A stretch of 64,000 nt of DNA from assembly GCA_026393755.1 (NCBI GenBank), contig JAPKZO010000028.1:124001-188000 (forward strand), read 5' to 3'. Every line of letters begins with the position of its first letter. Position 1 is the first letter of the stretch. Source of the DNA: Acidobacteriota bacterium (lineage in GTDB: Bacteria > Acidobacteriota > Vicinamibacteria > Vicinamibacterales > JAKQTR01). Positions 21,368 to 44,729 of the stretch are shown in pieces. A model generated the notes under the pieces. The model worked only from the letters and a program-made list of their open reading frames with translations, was not told the origin of the DNA and did not search any database. Both the position numbers and the translations under genes were made by a program.

Positions 21368-21424
21368 AATTACTCCCGGAGTAATTGTTCCCGAACGTTC
21401 GGGAACAATCACTCCGGGAGTGGT
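21368..21424. repeat. Composite palindromic repeat: 19-bp element, perfect 20-bp palindrome, inverted 19-bp element
   Basis: The left part AATTACTCCCGGAGTAATT (21368-21386) has perfect 9-bp arms around one C. The centre GTTCCCGAACGTTCGGGAAC (21387-21406) is a perfect 20-bp palindrome. The right part AATCACTCCGGGAGTGGT (21407-21424) is the same element inverted. The whole 57 bp is a near-symmetric structure about 21396/21397. It lies between the tolC-like and ATPase genes of the efflux cluster. The 19-bp element recurs at 37864-37972 and 44635-44729. It could be an operator, an intra-operon RNA hairpin, or a REP-like element. Confidence 0.85.
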
Positions 21425-21431
21425 CGTCCGA

Positions 21432-35470: not shown

Positions 35471-36859
35471 TCAGATCTGGACCTGTTCCCGGTACTCCGG
35501 CACGTGCAGCTTCCATCCCAGCTCCTTCTCAATTCGTGCCCGGAGCGCCTCTTGAGCGGGCGGCTCGCCGTGGACCATGTAGGTGATCGCCGGAGGACGC
35601 GAGAACCCGCCAAGCCACCTCATGATTTCGTTTTGATCCGCGTGAGCCGACATCGAATCGATGCGTTCGACGCGCGCGGCGACCGGTATCAGTTCGCCGT
35701 GGATCTTGACGGTGGCCGCACCTTCGAGCATCTGGCGTCCGCGGGTGCCGGCAGCTTGATAGCCGACAAAGAGCACCGTGTGCCGCGGGTTCGGCAGCGC
35801 TGCCTTCAGGTAGTGCAGCACGCGCCCGCCGCTCGCCATGCCGCTCGATGAAATGACGATGCACGGCGCCGGCGATGCCTGGATCTGTCGCGACTGCACG
35901 ACCGACGACACGGCCGTGAACCGCTGCGTCGTGAACGCTGACACCTGTCCCCGCCCCGTCTGCATGTCCGGATCGAGATCGCGATTGTGATTGGCGTAAT
36001 GCCGAAGCGCTTCGACGGCCATCGGGCTGTCCAGATACACGGGCACGACTGGGATCCGCCTGGCGGCCTCGATCCGCTTCAGCCAGTAGATCACTTCCTC
36101 GACGCGGCCCACCGCAAACGACGGGATGATCACCTTGCCGCCACCCGCGATCGTCGCGGCAATGATTCCGGCTAGATGCTCTCCGTCATCGTCCTGTTCG
36201 TGAAGACGATCGCCGTAGGTCGATTCGACCAGGAGGACGTCGGCGGTTTCGATCCTGGTGGGATCCGGCAACACCGGACGTTGGTAGCGGCCCAGGTCGC
36301 CGCTGAAGAGAATCTGCCGGCCCCCGTCTCCACCGCCAAGCGTCATCTGGACGAATGACGAGCCGAGCAGGTGCCCCGCGTCGATAAAGGTAATCGTGAT
36401 ATCGCCGCTGGCTGGCACCGGCCGGTCGTACCCGACCGGCTGCAGCAGCGTCAGCGCCCGCTGCGCATCTTCCTCGGTGAACAGCGGCAACGCCGGAGCG
36501 TGCTTGGTGTAACCGCCGCGGTTCGCCTCGCGCGCGTCTTCTTCGGCGAGCCGGCCCGCGTCCGGCAGCATGATGCGGCACAAATCGGCCGTGCCCGGAG
36601 TGCAGAACACGCGGCCGCGAAAGCCGTCCTTCACCAGGCGAGGCAGGTAGCCCGTATGATCGATGTGCGCGTGTGTGAGCACGACGGCGTCGATCGCTTT
36701 CGGATCAACCGGAAGCGCCTGCCAGTTTCGTTCGCGAAGCTCCTTTAATCCCTGGAACAGGCCGCAGTCAACCAGGATGCGCCGTCCGCCCGCCTCGACC
36801 AGATGCTTGGATCCGGTGACCGTGCGCGCCGCGCCAAGAAACGTCAGTGTGCTTGTCAT
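35471..36859 (-). CDS. Beta-CASP metallo-beta-lactamase nuclease (CPSF73/RNase-like)
   Basis: This 462-residue protein begins LTFLGAARTVTGSKHLVEAG, typical of bacterial CPSF-like MBLs. The zinc motif is H63-A-H65-I-D67-H68; further motifs are FIDAGHLLGSS and VLLVESTYGDR, and the beta-CASP section has PAPCIVISSSGMASGGRVLH (motif B) and SMSAHADQNEIMRWL (motif C). Such enzymes are endo- or 5'-3' exoribonucleases; the substrate here is unknown. Its ATG overlaps the PLP-dependent gene stop (ATGA), so the two are cotranscribed. Length is about 70 residues below RNase J and it lacks the extra C-terminal domain. Confidence 0.92.
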   Translation of the reverse strand: MTSTLTFLGAARTVTGSKHLVEAGGRRILVDCGLFQGLKELRERNWQALPVDPKAIDAVVLTHAHIDHTGYLPRLVKDGFRGRVFCTPGTADLCRIMLPDAGRLAEEDAREANRGGYTKHAPALPLFTEEDAQRALTLLQPVGYDRPVPASGDITITFIDAGHLLGSSFVQMTLGGGDGGRQILFSGDLGRYQRPVLPDPTRIETADVLLVESTYGDRLHEQDDDGEHLAGIIAATIAGGGKVIIPSFAVGRVEEVIYWLKRIEAARRIPVVPVYLDSPMAVEALRHYANHNRDLDPDMQTGRGQVSAFTTQRFTAVSSVVQSRQIQASPAPCIVISSSGMASGGRVLHYLKAALPNPRHTVLFVGYQAAGTRGRQMLEGAATVKIHGELIPVAARVERIDSMSAHADQNEIMRWLGGFSRPPAITYMVHGEPPAQEALRARIEKELGWKLHVPEYREQVQI

Positions 36860-37839
36860 GCAAACAGACCTACCTGTCCACCTGTGTGCCAGAACAGCAC
36901 CGTCTGGCTCGCCGGGAAGACTCCCCGTCGGACGTAGGAAAGAAGGCCGGCCATCGCCTTCGCCGTGTACGTGTGATCCAGGAAGATCGCCTCGTGGCGC
37001 GCGAGCAGACTCACTGCCTCGCGCGACGCGGGAGTCGGCACGCCGTAGCCGTCACCGATAAACGTGTCGTCAACCTCGATCGCCTGCGCGTCGGCGAGAG
37101 CCTGCCCGTCGACGCCGAGCAGATTGCCCATCCCCGTCATCACGGTTCGAACGGTGTCCCGAATCACGGCCACCGGATCGTCGGCGCTGATTCCCACGAT
37201 GCGTGCCGGCAGATCGTAGATGGCGCAGCCGCCCACCAGGCCGGATTGCGTGCCCCCCGACGAGGTTGAGTGCACGATGACGTCGGGCCGGACGCCCTGC
37301 GAGACGAGTTCGCCGACGCCGCGCGCAAGACCCAGCGCGCCAAGCGGCATCGAGATCCCCAGGGCGATTTCGAACGGGTGGCGGCCCTCCCGCCGCAGCC
37401 GATCGGCCATCGCCGCCATTGCGGGCGCGCGCTCCTCACGGGTGGCCACGTAGTGCACCTCGGCCCCCAGCAGGTCGTCGAGAAGGGCGTTCGCCGTCAG
37501 CCGCTCCGGCCGGGTGCCATTGGCGACGAGCACGCACTTCAATCCCAGGCGTGCCGCCGTCGCCGCCACCACGCGCGCAGAATTCGATTGGACGCCGCCG
37601 ATGCTCAACAAGGTGTCGGCGCCCTCGGCGACCGCGCGCGCGGCCACGAGCGCAACCTTCCGGACCTTGTTCCCCCCGAATCCGAACGGGATGGCATCGT
37701 CGCGCTTGATGAGCAGACGGGGCCCGCCGCCCAGCGCCTGACGGAGCCGCGACAGTTCTTGGACAGGTGATGGCGCCGGCCAGAGATCGAGCGCCGGGAT
37801 CGCGGCCAGACGTTCTCGCATGAATGCGGTCGACAGCAT
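36856..37839 (-). CDS. PLP-dependent D-cysteine desulfhydrase / ACC deaminase family protein
   Basis: This protein of about 327 residues is a fold-type II PLP enzyme. The lysine is in FGFGGNKVRKVAL (the NKxRK motif of ACC deaminase and D-cysteine desulfhydrase), the SIGGVQSNSARVVAATAARL motif is the amide/phosphate loop, and STSSGGTQSGLVGGCAIYD lies near the centre. It may degrade D-cysteine or related amino acids to 2-oxoacid and ammonia. ATG 37839 is chosen: the longer frame to 37959 merely translates the upstream palindromic repeats. A TACAAT -10 box ends 6 nt upstream, indicating a leaderless transcript. It shares a 4-nt overlap with the beta-CASP gene. Confidence 0.9.
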   Translation of the reverse strand: MLSTAFMRERLAAIPALDLWPAPSPVQELSRLRQALGGGPRLLIKRDDAIPFGFGGNKVRKVALVAARAVAEGADTLLSIGGVQSNSARVVAATAARLGLKCVLVANGTRPERLTANALLDDLLGAEVHYVATREERAPAMAAMADRLRREGRHPFEIALGISMPLGALGLARGVGELVSQGVRPDVIVHSTSSGGTQSGLVGGCAIYDLPARIVGISADDPVAVIRDTVRTVMTGMGNLLGVDGQALADAQAIEVDDTFIGDGYGVPTPASREAVSLLARHEAIFLDHTYTAKAMAGLLSYVRRGVFPASQTVLFWHTGGQVGLFA

Positions 37840-37845
37840 CCGCGT

Positions 37846-37851
37846 ATTGTA
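37846..37851 (-). promoter_or_regulatory. -10 box of a probable leaderless promoter preceded by a repeat array (PLP enzyme gene)
   Basis: TACAAT on the minus strand ends 6 nt before the ATG at 37839. The expected -35 region falls inside the first palindrome of the array (37864-37882) and has no TTGACA. Confidence 0.55.
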
Positions 37852-37863
37852 TCCCCGCTGGAA

Positions 37864-37972
37864 AATCACTCCCGGAGTAATTAGGTCGTGGCCAATCACT
37901 CCCGGAGTAATTGGGTAGTGGCTACTCACTCCCGGAGTAATTAGGGTGTGGCTAATCACTCCGGAGTGGTTT
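37864..37972. repeat. Array of four 19-bp interrupted palindromes on a 30-bp period
   Basis: Copies begin at 37864, 37894, 37924 and 37954, exactly 30 bp apart. The first two are AATCACTCCCGGAGTAATT, the third differs at one base and the fourth is shortened (AATCACTCCGGAGTGGTTT). The core is ACTCC-C-GGAGT. Interposed 11-bp segments are similar but not identical (AGGTCGTGGCC, GGGTAGTGGCT, AGGGTGTGGCT). The array lies between the TonB-dependent receptor-like gene and the PLP enzyme, about -25 to -133 relative to the ATG of the latter. The 30-bp step places every copy on the same DNA face. Confidence 0.9.
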
Positions 37973-37980
37973 GCTCACGC

Positions 37981-40641
37981 TCAGAATGTGAACCGGGCGC
38001 CTACCTGGAGTTTGCGGGGTTGTGAGGCGGCCAGCGGCCGGCCAAAGAACGGCGACGTCATCACAAAGCTGTAGGCGGTGTAGTTGGTGCGATTGAGCAG
38101 GTTCTGACCCGATACATAGAACTCCAGCCGAAGGCGCTTGTCAGCGGCCGCGCCGCCAAATCCTGGCGCCAGACCACCGCCGCCCCCGGCATTGATGACC
38201 ACCTGCCCGCCCCCCGGACCGCCCGCCTGTCTCGGCGTCCCGAATCCAAATCCATACGAGATTCGGCCGCCAAGATCCCACTGCGCCGCCCCTCGCGCGG
38301 AATTGCGCGCGACGCCCGCAGGACGATCGTTGAACACCCCATCGGCATTGTCATCGCGGCCCGTCGTAATGTTGAAGGGCATGCCCGACTGGCCTCGCAG
38401 GTTGATGCCGACGGTGACGTTGGGGATCGGCGAGATGTTGAATGACGCGCCAACCCGGTGGCGAATGTCCCCGGCACTCGGGCCCCACTCGGACTGAAGG
38501 GAGTCGCCGCTCGGAGGAATCGAGAACGCTCCAGTGGTGTTGGTCTCGCTCTTGCTCAACGTGTAGTTGAGCATGAGGAACATCCGCTTCTTGTCCATCC
38601 GCACAAAGCTGTAGTACATGCTGACGGCCTGAGATCGCGATGCGGCGTCGGTGACCAGTTCAACTCTGTTGGCGAAGGCGGGATCCGGCCGCACGCCGCC
38701 CGCCGGAGCGTTCAGGTTCCGGCCGCGCAGCAAGTCGATGCCCCAGCCGCGCGTGTAACTCACGCTGAGGCGTCCATTCTGTGAGAGCGTCCGGTCAACG
38801 CCCAGACTCACTCGATTCGCCGATGGCAATACCAGACTGTCGGACCACAAGTACTGATTGGTTGGCGCGGTCGCCCCATCGACACCGGGATCGGGATACG
38901 ACGGATTGAAGATGTTCGACTCGCGCTGCCGGTACCCGTCGACGAGCAGTGTCTGTTTGTATAGATCGCCCGCGAGCCAGTCGTAGAAGTAACCATAGCT
39001 TCCACGAAGAGTCATTCGCCCGTCCTTGAACGGCGACCACGCCGCCGACATGCGGGGCGAGAGGTTCCACCGGTCTGAGACCTGGCTCTGCACGCCATAC
39101 CGCACCCCCGGCGAGACCAGCAGGCTGCGCGTGATGCGGTAGTCGTCCTGAACATAGATGGCCGCGCGATACGTCGAGTACGTAACATTTGGATCGCCGA
39201 TCCTGCGCGAATAACTCATCGGCCGTCCCGCCAGAAAGTCCGTCAGGCTCGCAAACCCATACGTGCCAAGGTAATTGGTCGTGTCATCGGATCGGTATCG
39301 ACCGCCTTCGAGCAGGACTCCCGTCCGCCACGAATGCGCCCCCCGCACGTAGTCGAGATCGCTCGCCAGCTCGAACTCGGTTGAGCGCTGGCCGCCCCGC
39401 TGCTGCGCACCGCCGCTCGTGAAGGCGTCCTGCACGCGAATCGTCTCCGCCTCCACCGCCGATCGGTTGCTGGCGCCGGTCGTCTTCAGCTGAAAACGCG
39501 ACTCGGTAAAGAACTTGCGCCCAAGCGCGCCGTTTTCTGACATGCGCAGCAGGTTGGTAGACGACGAATTGTCGTAGGCGCGATCGAACAGGTTGAAACC
39601 GCCCACGCCAAGGCTGCGGGACGTGCTGCTGGTGCGGTCGACGCTGAGGCGCATCGCGTGGTCCCTGGTCAACGCGTGATCAAGGCGGGCGCTGAAGTTG
39701 TAGGCGTCCCGCGGCTGGCGCAGTGTGTCGGTCACCGTCGAACCGCTCGGGAGCACCGCGAGCAGGTTCGGTGACGTGTACTGCGACGAGCCGCCGCCAT
39801 TCAATGAGAATGACGTCTTGTTGGGCGTGATCGTGCCGGACAGGCTGGCGCCGTACTGCCGCAGTTGTTCCTGGGGCTTCGTGGTGGTGAACGGATTCCT
39901 CGCGTTGAAGGCATCATCCAGGAAGTGCACGTCGACGCTGCCCCGGATCGGTCCATTGCCTGGCATCGTCATGATGTCGATGAACATCATGCCGCTCATG
40001 CCGCCGTGATTCTGGGCCGCGAACATGTCGAGGCGCGGCAGGCGGATCGAACGAATCTGCGACTTGTGCGGCAGCCGGCCACCGGTGAATCCGTCGACGC
40101 GGATGACGGAGCCGGGCGGGGCCATCGCCTTGAGCACCTCCGCCATCTCGTCTGGATCGTCGGGCAAGGCGTCGATCTGGTCGCGCGTGAGCACAGTGCT
40201 GAAGGCGCTGCCTGCCGGATCCAGAGACGACGACTGTCGGTCGCGCCGCACCGTGATTTCCTGATCCAGCTTCTTGATGCGCAGCGTGATCCGACGCCGT
40301 GTTTCGGCGCCGCGCACGCGGACATCACGGACGTCGACCGGGTCAAAGCCGGGAAACTCCACGTGAATCGTGTAGCGACCCTCCGGCAGGCCCTCGACGA
40401 CCGCGATGCCGACGCCGTTCGTGGAGGTCGGCGGGATCGCGGCCGACTGCGTGAGGCTCTCGCTGCCCGTGACGGTTACGACGGCCAGCGGAATCACCGC
40501 CCCCGACTGGTCCGCCACCGTCATGACCAGACGCCCTCGCCGCTCTGGCGTTTGCGCAGAGGCTCCGCCCGCCGCCAGCACAGCGGCGGCCAGCGCGAAT
40601 CCGCAGGCAAACAACGCCCGGCGCGGCGTACGTCGCGTCAT
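37981..40641 (-). CDS. TonB-dependent receptor-like (Oar-type) outer-membrane protein with carboxypeptidase-regulatory-like domain
   Basis: This protein of about 886 residues has a signal peptide ([20 protein letters not shown]), an N-terminal carboxypeptidase-regulatory-like domain ([20 protein letters not shown]...), a plug region ([40 protein letters not shown]) and a large beta-barrel. The closing [15 protein letters not shown] ends in Phe, as expected for barrel assembly. It belongs with the Oar/TonB-like proteins abundant in Acidobacteriota; the ligand is unknown. ATG 40641 and GTG 40668 are both possible. Near residue 790 there is a Gly-rich loop ([20 protein letters not shown]). Confidence 0.87.
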
Positions 40642-40671
40642 GTCTCTGGAGTTGCTACGCGCCCGCACGGC

Positions 40672-43051: not shown

Positions 43052-43071
43052 GGGCACGGCATGCCGTGCCC
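43052..43071. repeat. Perfect 20-bp palindrome between SDR and aminotransferase genes
   Basis: GGGCACGGCATGCCGTGCCC is a perfect palindrome at 43052-43071, inside the 76-bp gap between the SDR stop codon and the aminotransferase start. No T tract follows on either strand, so an intrinsic terminator is unlikely. REP-like element or operator are alternatives. Confidence 0.75.
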
Positions 43072-43863: not shown

Positions 43864-44265
43864 CTACTCAACCAGCTCGACCCCGGTGAACGGATCGACG
43901 GCAGCCGCGAGAGCGCGGTCGCGCGTCACCAGGTCTGCACCGAGGAACCCGGCAAGCCACATATAGCTCGCGTCGTATGGCGACAAACCTGTGGCATTCG
44001 CCAACACGACGACATCCATCGGATTCGGATCCATCCAGACGATACCCTTCCGAGGATCGAGCGTCAGTTCAAGAGCCGTCAGAATCTCGCGTGTCCGTTC
44101 AGGGCGCTGCCGACATTTCTTGCGCGCCACGTTCGCCATCTCATACTGGAGCAACGTCGGGGCATACAGAGTCGCGCCGTCAAGTCGCACGCTCCACTCC
44201 TGAGCCATCGACTCGCCGAACGTGATCGCCGCAAGCACTGATGTGTCGACGACGACGCGCCTCAT
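43864..44265 (-). CDS. vapC: PIN domain ribonuclease toxin, VapC family
   Basis: This 133-residue PIN-domain protein has the acidic quartet D7 (VVDTSVL), E42 (QYEMANV), D98 (SPYDASYMWLA) and D116 (VTRDRALA). VapC toxins are Mg-dependent endoribonucleases that cleave tRNA or rRNA. The ATG overlaps the antitoxin stop by 4 nt, the usual arrangement for coupled translation with antitoxin made first. RNA target unknown. Confidence 0.94.
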   Translation of the reverse strand: MRRVVVDTSVLAAITFGESMAQEWSVRLDGATLYAPTLLQYEMANVARKKCRQRPERTREILTALELTLDPRKGIVWMDPNPMDVVVLANATGLSPYDASYMWLAGFLGADLVTRDRALAAAVDPFTGVELVE

Positions 44266-44501
44266 CGGCTTCTCTCATCGCGATCTTCACGGACGATCTG
44301 CGTCGAATCGTCGTCGGTGTGGAGCCCAAGCTTCTGAATCTCCTGCCACAGCGCCATCGCCTTGAACGGCCGGGCGCGAGTGTGCGTTTCAACCATCGCC
44401 ATCAACTCGCCCTGCAGCGACCGATGATTCCATCGCGCGCGATCCCGCAGCGCCTCTGCCAGTTCGTCGGGCACTTCCTTGATTGAGAGATTGACGGGCA
44501 T
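44262..44501 (-). CDS. vapB: Antitoxin of the VapB/FitA ribbon-helix-helix type
   Basis: This 79-residue protein begins MPVNLSIKEVPDELAEALRD, a ribbon-helix-helix (FitA/Arc-type) strand-helix pattern, followed by ARWNHRSLQGELMAMVETH and a C-terminal tail that would bind the PIN toxin. The start at 44501 is set by GGAGG about 8 nt upstream; a frame opening at 44516 would place the start inside the Shine-Dalgarno region. The operator candidate at 44511-44523 overlaps the ribosome-binding site, consistent with autorepression. Confidence 0.92.
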   Translation of the reverse strand: MPVNLSIKEVPDELAEALRDRARWNHRSLQGELMAMVETHTRARPFKAMALWQEIQKLGLHTDDDSTQIVREDRDERSR

Positions 44502-44634: not shown

Positions 44635-44729
44635 AATCACTCCCGGTGTGATAATCACTCCCGGAGTAATTACGAAACTGTAATCACTCCGGGAGTAATT
44701 GGGCGGCGGTAATCACTCCGGGAGTGTTA
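44635..44729. repeat. Array of four copies of the 19-bp interrupted palindrome
   Basis: Copies begin at 44635 (degenerate), 44653, 44682 and 44711. The last three are spaced 29 bp and the first 18 bp from the second. Copy 44653 has the C-centred form AATCACTCCCGGAGTAATT; copies 44682 and 44711 have a G centre (AATCACTCCGGGAGTAATT and a variant). The interposed 10-bp segments differ. The array lies between the divergent vapBC promoter and the aminotransferase gene, ending 12 bp before its ATG at 44742. Confidence 0.88.

Follow-up and report, generated by a model that had tools for sequence, protein, structure and literature searches.

A phased palindromic array upstream of a PLP enzyme gene in an Acidobacteriota bacterium is very probably part of a dispersed REP/BIME-like repeat family

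The four-copy palindromic array lying between a TonB-dependent-receptor-like gene and the gene of a PLP-dependent enzyme in an Acidobacteriota genome belongs, in all likelihood, to a family of short palindromes of the REP/BIME type that are extragenic, dispersed, and specific to the lineage, a reading that includes a putative role as a 3′ hairpin. Members of this family are repeated, intergenic, located at gene 3′ ends and arranged as inverted pairs or arrays, and they vary in copy number and turn over between congeners. The window analyzed here is the whole 64-kb stretch G000:C28:124001-188000 of a 4.43-Mb genome. An initial annotation of the window had interpreted the array as an operator or activator array controlling the transcript of the PLP enzyme and a β-CASP nuclease, and had named a REP-like expansion as the alternative. 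Genome-wide copies at gene 3′ ends support that alternative; the same copies, close to stop codons and beside unrelated neighbors, speak against the operator. The array is more likely an RNA-hairpin-forming REP-like repeat than a switch for the neighboring genes.

The array consists of four palindromes whose starts are exactly 30 bp apart, separated by mutually related 11-bp spacers (AGGTCGTGGCC, GGGTAGTGGCT, and AGGGTGTGGCT) (Table 1). The initial annotation had described both the four palindromes on a 30-bp period and the alike but nonidentical spacers, and sequence comparison confirmed both, with the refinement that the fourth copy lacks the central base. Its suggestion that a 30-bp step places all copies on the same DNA face is weak: because 30 bp is ~2.86 turns at 10.5 bp per turn, the copies are not quite on one helix face, and elsewhere both 29-bp and 30-bp steps are found. 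Searching the 64-kb window for the 19-mer with up to three mismatches gave 14 strand hits in three arrays, compared with 0.01 expected from dinucleotide-preserving shuffles. The two additional elements were absent from the initial annotation. In one, the 20-bp spacer between the two copies (21387-21406) is itself a perfect palindrome, GTTCCCGAACGTTCGGGAAC, which recurs with one base changed in an element at C40:71248. The other has four copies with steps of 18, 29, and 29 bp and adjoins a PIN/FitA-like toxin-antitoxin pair (43864-44501).

Table 1. Positions of palindromic elements, genes, and promoter box in the window, with gene identities assigned from the sequences themselves
Feature	Position	Strand	Remarks
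Palindrome copy 1	37864-37882	none	19 bp, AATCACTCCCGGAGTAATT
Palindrome copy 2	37894-37912	none	19 bp, AATCACTCCCGGAGTAATT
Palindrome copy 3	37924-37942	none	19 bp, ACTCACTCCCGGAGTAATT
Palindrome copy 4	37954-37971	none	18 bp, AATCACTCCGGAGTGGTT (ACTCCGGAGT), central base deleted
Whole array	37864-37971	-	minus-strand RNA folds into two ~20-bp hairpins
Second family element, left copy	21368-21386	none	
Second family element, right copy	21407-21425	none	pairs with left copy
Third family element	44635-44729	none	four copies
TonB-dependent-receptor-like gene	37981-40668	-	upstream of array; stop codon 37981-37983
PLP-dependent enzyme gene	36856-37839	-	D-cysteine desulfhydrase/ACC-deaminase-like
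β-CASP/MBL nuclease-like gene	35471-36859	-	downstream of PLP gene; order PLP-β-CASP kept in G001-G004
-10-like box TACAAT of PLP gene leaderless promoter	37846-37851	-	conserved in five genomes, independent of array

Genome-wide, about 140-160 sites carry the 19-bp palindrome AATYACTCCSGGAGTRATT, compared with 1 for a reversed-pattern control. The exact core ACTCCNGGAGT accounts for 138-139 occurrences (reversed control pattern, 1), and 163 sites are found when up to three mismatches in the 19-mer are allowed. The consensus of a single copy is approximately GAYAATCACTCC-S-GGAGTGATTRTC, and each site contains one to five copies. Steps between copies are 29 bp in 26 cases and 30 bp in 33, the two often alternating, and the others range from 15 to 63 bp. 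Spacers of 10 nt mostly read ACARNNYTGT, which extends the inverted repeat, and those of 11 nt are mostly GC-rich. In 36 of 48 multicopy groups, the leftmost copy is C-centered and the rightmost G-centered, and the opposite order was never found (0/48), so most groups are inverted pairs resembling head-head REP dimers. A variant, AATCAATCCSGGATTGATT, is present in two copies at C28:229339-229394 with both arms altered together. Contig C28, which carries a dnaA-like gene at 390992 and makes up 9.6% of the genome, holds 18 of the 58 groups located outside a toxin-antitoxin island (described below), an excess with a binomial p of about 3e-6. The same genome has another palindrome family, often GTAGGGGCACGGCATGCCGTGCCCCTAC, that bears the GTAG tag of classical REPs; it occurs at 43054-43069 of the window and at 15 further places in the fetched sequence, C28:5629 and C28:358322 among them, twice within ~40 bp of the ACTCCSGGAGT family.

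The position of the elements relative to genes was analyzed in 977 kb of stretches picked because they contain sites, so that background figures are approximate; genes were called with a simple codon-usage model, and copies <130 bp apart were treated as one group. The 70 intergenic groups lie a median of 5.5 bp from a flanking stop codon and 79 bp from a start codon, the starts being taken from our own gene caller and less certain than the stops. Overlaps with coding sequence are confined to gene ends, with few calls inside ORFs. Of 66 flanking stops, 27 are at, inside, or within 2 bp of the element, and 11 of those 27 genes end on the identical palindrome base, with TGA located within GGAGTGATT (GGAGTGA). 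For tandem gene pairs outside the island, the element is closer to the upstream stop in 20 of 25 (p = 0.002). Convergent gaps, which hold no start codon, are enriched (15 of the 58 elements outside the island), as are single copies between convergent genes (7/17).

This distribution bears directly on the proposal of an operator at which a dimeric regulator, bound cooperatively to the four phased palindromes, controls the PLP/β-CASP transcript. The 19-mer is dyad-symmetric, and the phased array immediately precedes a leaderless -10 box that is conserved, as would suit an operator; furthermore, arrays of at least three copies outside the island are overrepresented in divergent gaps (10/17, compared with an expectation of about 25%, itself an approximate background figure). 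However, the copies favor stops over starts, distances to start codons run from -36 to 1070 bp with no preferred value, and the convergent gaps offer no start codon to regulate. The flanking genes share no common function and include truA, dnaA, dnaX, purC, fabZ, accC-like, and MutS-like genes among others, as named from their sequences. Because ~150 scattered copies sit just after gene ends, the operator is the less likely reading, and together with the promoter evidence given below we consider it quite unlikely. The divergent arrays also count against a general 3′-hairpin role for the REP-like family, since a 3′-UTR function is impossible in a divergent gap.

When the array was folded as RNA on the strand of the TonB-like and PLP genes, it formed two ~20-bp hairpins (-58.3 kcal/mol, z-score -7.3), in which copy 4 pairs with copy 3 and copy 2 with copy 1, beginning 9 nt past the TonB stop codon. 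Bidirectional intrinsic transcription terminators would likewise form stem-loops where genes end and be enriched in convergent gaps, yet the GC-rich stem is not followed by a U-tract, the outer flanks just outside the stem being about 15-30% T, and the classical form, a GC-rich hairpin with an A/T run, occurs separately beside one element at C28:5668, and also in G001. A terminator function for the elements is therefore most improbable. No Rfam covariance model matched the array at E values up to 1.

The promoter of the PLP gene was examined together with its relatives. Both strands of the palindrome can be read through in frame (ITPGVI repeats), so ORF callers run the PLP gene through the array, and the GTG starts called at 37959 or 37899 are artifacts; the start that is conserved lies no further upstream than 37839. 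In agreement with the initial annotation, 6 nt separate the end of TACAAT from the ATG at 37839, and no σ70 -35/-10 pair scores. A box reading TATACAAT, TACAAT, or TATAGAAT is present 6-8 nt before the PLP ATG in all five genomes compared, namely, the window genome, its congener G001, and three genomes of a sister genus (G002-G004). Across the window genome, TATAAT-like boxes are most frequent at 6-10 nt ahead of start codons, an overrepresentation that supports leaderless promoters in this genome and suggests that leaderless transcripts are common in it. The box conservation and this genome-wide excess together bear out the leaderless promoter proposed initially.

The array does not share this conservation. 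The TonB-PLP-β-CASP order is kept in G001 with 85-91% protein identity, and the PLP-β-CASP order in the three sister-genus genomes, but the array is absent from the PLP locus of all three, and G001 has a single decayed copy, ACTCTCGGAGT, at the corresponding site but 4 bp further from the box. Thus, the promoter is genuine and has been conserved, the array being an addition specific to this lineage. Conservation of the promoter without the array was the very observation that the initial annotation had named as refuting its operator. We found neither a preferred start-codon geometry nor retention of the site with its promoter in close relatives, the two marks of a dimeric regulator. The locus illustrates that regular phasing of palindromes close before a start codon does not by itself make an operator, as palindromes are gained and lost here beside a conserved promoter. 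The remainder of the G001 TonB-PLP gap consists of unrelated hairpins, among them about two occurrences of another hairpin motif, GCCGGGCTGGAGCCCGGCGATCCCAGG; it seems that the gaps used by the palindrome family also receive hairpin repeats of other kinds.

Turnover was also evident elsewhere. Among nine other junctions with conserved neighbors, G001 clearly shares the element at C40:170525 and also one of two copies, partly decayed, at C8:30302, and most of the remainder have no element in G001, whose intergenic DNA is too diverged to define exact element ends or target duplications. Within the window genome, the duplicated contexts C28:292389 and C28:297323 have matching flanks with one and three palindromes, respectively, the difference being one 59-bp unit, so that arrays seem to gain or lose complete units. 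In a survey of 149 related genomes, copy numbers were near background except in G001 (26 copies) and the genus g12 (30, 11, and 10 copies); the common form in g12 is GAAACCACTCCSGGAGTGGTTTC, which is mostly intergenic too. The family is patchy within one order. When a pattern of two arrayed copies was searched against GTDB genomes, one other record was returned, an Acidobacteria metagenome-assembled genome. A phage or plasmid origin was rejected, as the palindrome array had no match in viral contigs, plasmids, or phages.

A 13-kb island at C28:290.5-303.5 kb (290565-303437) contains 12 palindrome groups between Phd/ParE, NTase/HepT, PIN/Phd, and AAA-DUF4143 modules, and a similar picture is seen in G034, from a different genus, where clusters on two contigs lie near AAA-DUF4143 and PIN genes. 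Island palindromes have a common right flank (105-157 bp, 88-90% identical), starting at the palindrome, and differing left flanks. Such an arrangement could be produced if the palindromes were recombination sites that shuffle toxin-antitoxin-like modules in the manner of integron attC, the arrays in the window being stray sites. Against this, the common right flank has a ribosome-binding site and ATG at its end, as if the 5′ regions of paralogous modules had been duplicated. In addition, a palindrome lies near only about 5 of the 34 PIN genes and 4 of the 10 DUF4143 genes genome-wide, mostly in the one island, and most elements flank ordinary genes in conserved order. We regard shuffling sites as highly improbable. 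Since few PIN or DUF4143 genes elsewhere adjoin a copy, the island is a hot spot rather than a sign of the family's role, and we rejected a cassette boundary as its general function. A combined proposal, in which, within a single bacterial lineage, the REP-like family spreads and grows into inverted arrays without a tyrosine (Y1) REP transposase and its copies act as recombination joints around toxin-antitoxin-like modules, is unlikely; if true, a repeat usually seen as an RNA or nucleoid element would also shape a defense/toxin island. Our literature search on toxin-antitoxin systems together with palindromic repeats found nothing close.

For the REP-like family, the following mechanism can be proposed. 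It may spread as a small nonautonomous repeat or by recombination, with arrays growing by duplication of whole units, 30 bp in the array studied here and 59 bp elsewhere. Once transcribed, the array would give the TonB mRNA, whose gene lies upstream, a putative hairpin at its 3′ end that acts as a decay barrier or an attenuator. The array would also separate the TonB gene from the PLP/β-CASP transcript, which would start at its own conserved leaderless promoter between array and ATG.

REPs are defined as extragenic palindromic stem-loops of 14-40 nt that seldom overlap coding sequence, have a common consensus and many copies, and are transcribed (PMC12306157). The family has elements of 19-25 bp in numbers and with a consensus of this kind, its palindromes fold stably and form inverted pairs, its groups are extragenic as described above, and its position after stops suggests that it is transcribed. 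REP hairpins at gene ends are reported to stabilize upstream mRNA or serve as attenuators, and in E. coli about half of the REPs are able to stall ribosomes close to the stop codon (PMC12306157). REPs are found within 20 bp of 3′ ends, supply stop codons, and form inverted dimers and clusters (PMC3733652). Like the REP/BIME elements of E. coli and Pseudomonas, including GTAG REPs, the family consists of short extragenic palindromes within about 20 bp of 3′ ends, its termini give stop codons to flanking ORFs, it varies between related species, and it forms inverted dimers and clusters with structured or conserved spacers (PMC3733652); the C-to-G inverted groups and the two spacer classes correspond to BIME organization. 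Because these published properties are also seen here, we take the array to work like REP/BIME, and counts, position, polarity, fold, turnover, and patchiness all match published REP behavior (PMC3733652, PMC12306157). The family sequence differs from the REP families in both of those studies and, unlike GTAG REPs, its copies are nearly symmetric and carry no GTAG tag, as judged from base frequencies at the outer ends of the elements.

No match to RAYT (Y1_Tnp, PF01797) was detected in the window genome, and of the PF01797 genes of relatives (two in G001 and one each in G024 and G059) none is flanked by the palindrome, so a RAYT-mobilized REP was rejected. That no transposase is linked to the family is a point against the REP-like reading itself. 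CGTC REPs, dRS3, and RPE likewise have no dedicated transposase, and they resemble the family in their stems of 8-9 bp, which have A/T at the ends, their mostly head-head dimers, and their readability in frame within ORFs (PMC3733652). CGTC REPs carry a terminal CGTC, TGTC, or CCTC tag followed by a short tail. The outer ends of the family weakly read TRTC, with a weak RTC beyond both ends, and the CGTC motif itself appears not to be conserved, C reaching only about 55-62% at the third flanking position; a CCA tail was not seen. The family also differs in its loops, which have either a single base or 10-20. The TIR repeats of TIRYT genes, described in the acidobacterium Koribacter versatilis, are also self-complementary and occur in dimers or clusters (PMC3733652), but no transposase gene flanked by our palindrome was found here. 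CRISPR arrays share palindromic repeats and regular spacing, whereas the family has conserved spacers of 10-11 bp and at most five copies per array and is dispersed over the genome. These comparisons add a REP-like repeat, apparently without the usual transposase, in a little-studied lineage, and the presence of carriers and noncarriers among close relatives makes it a usable case for RAYT-free REP-like spread. On the best reading, the palindromes are a new family within a known class of repeats, resembling REP/BIME elements but lacking GTAG tags and a detectable RAYT.
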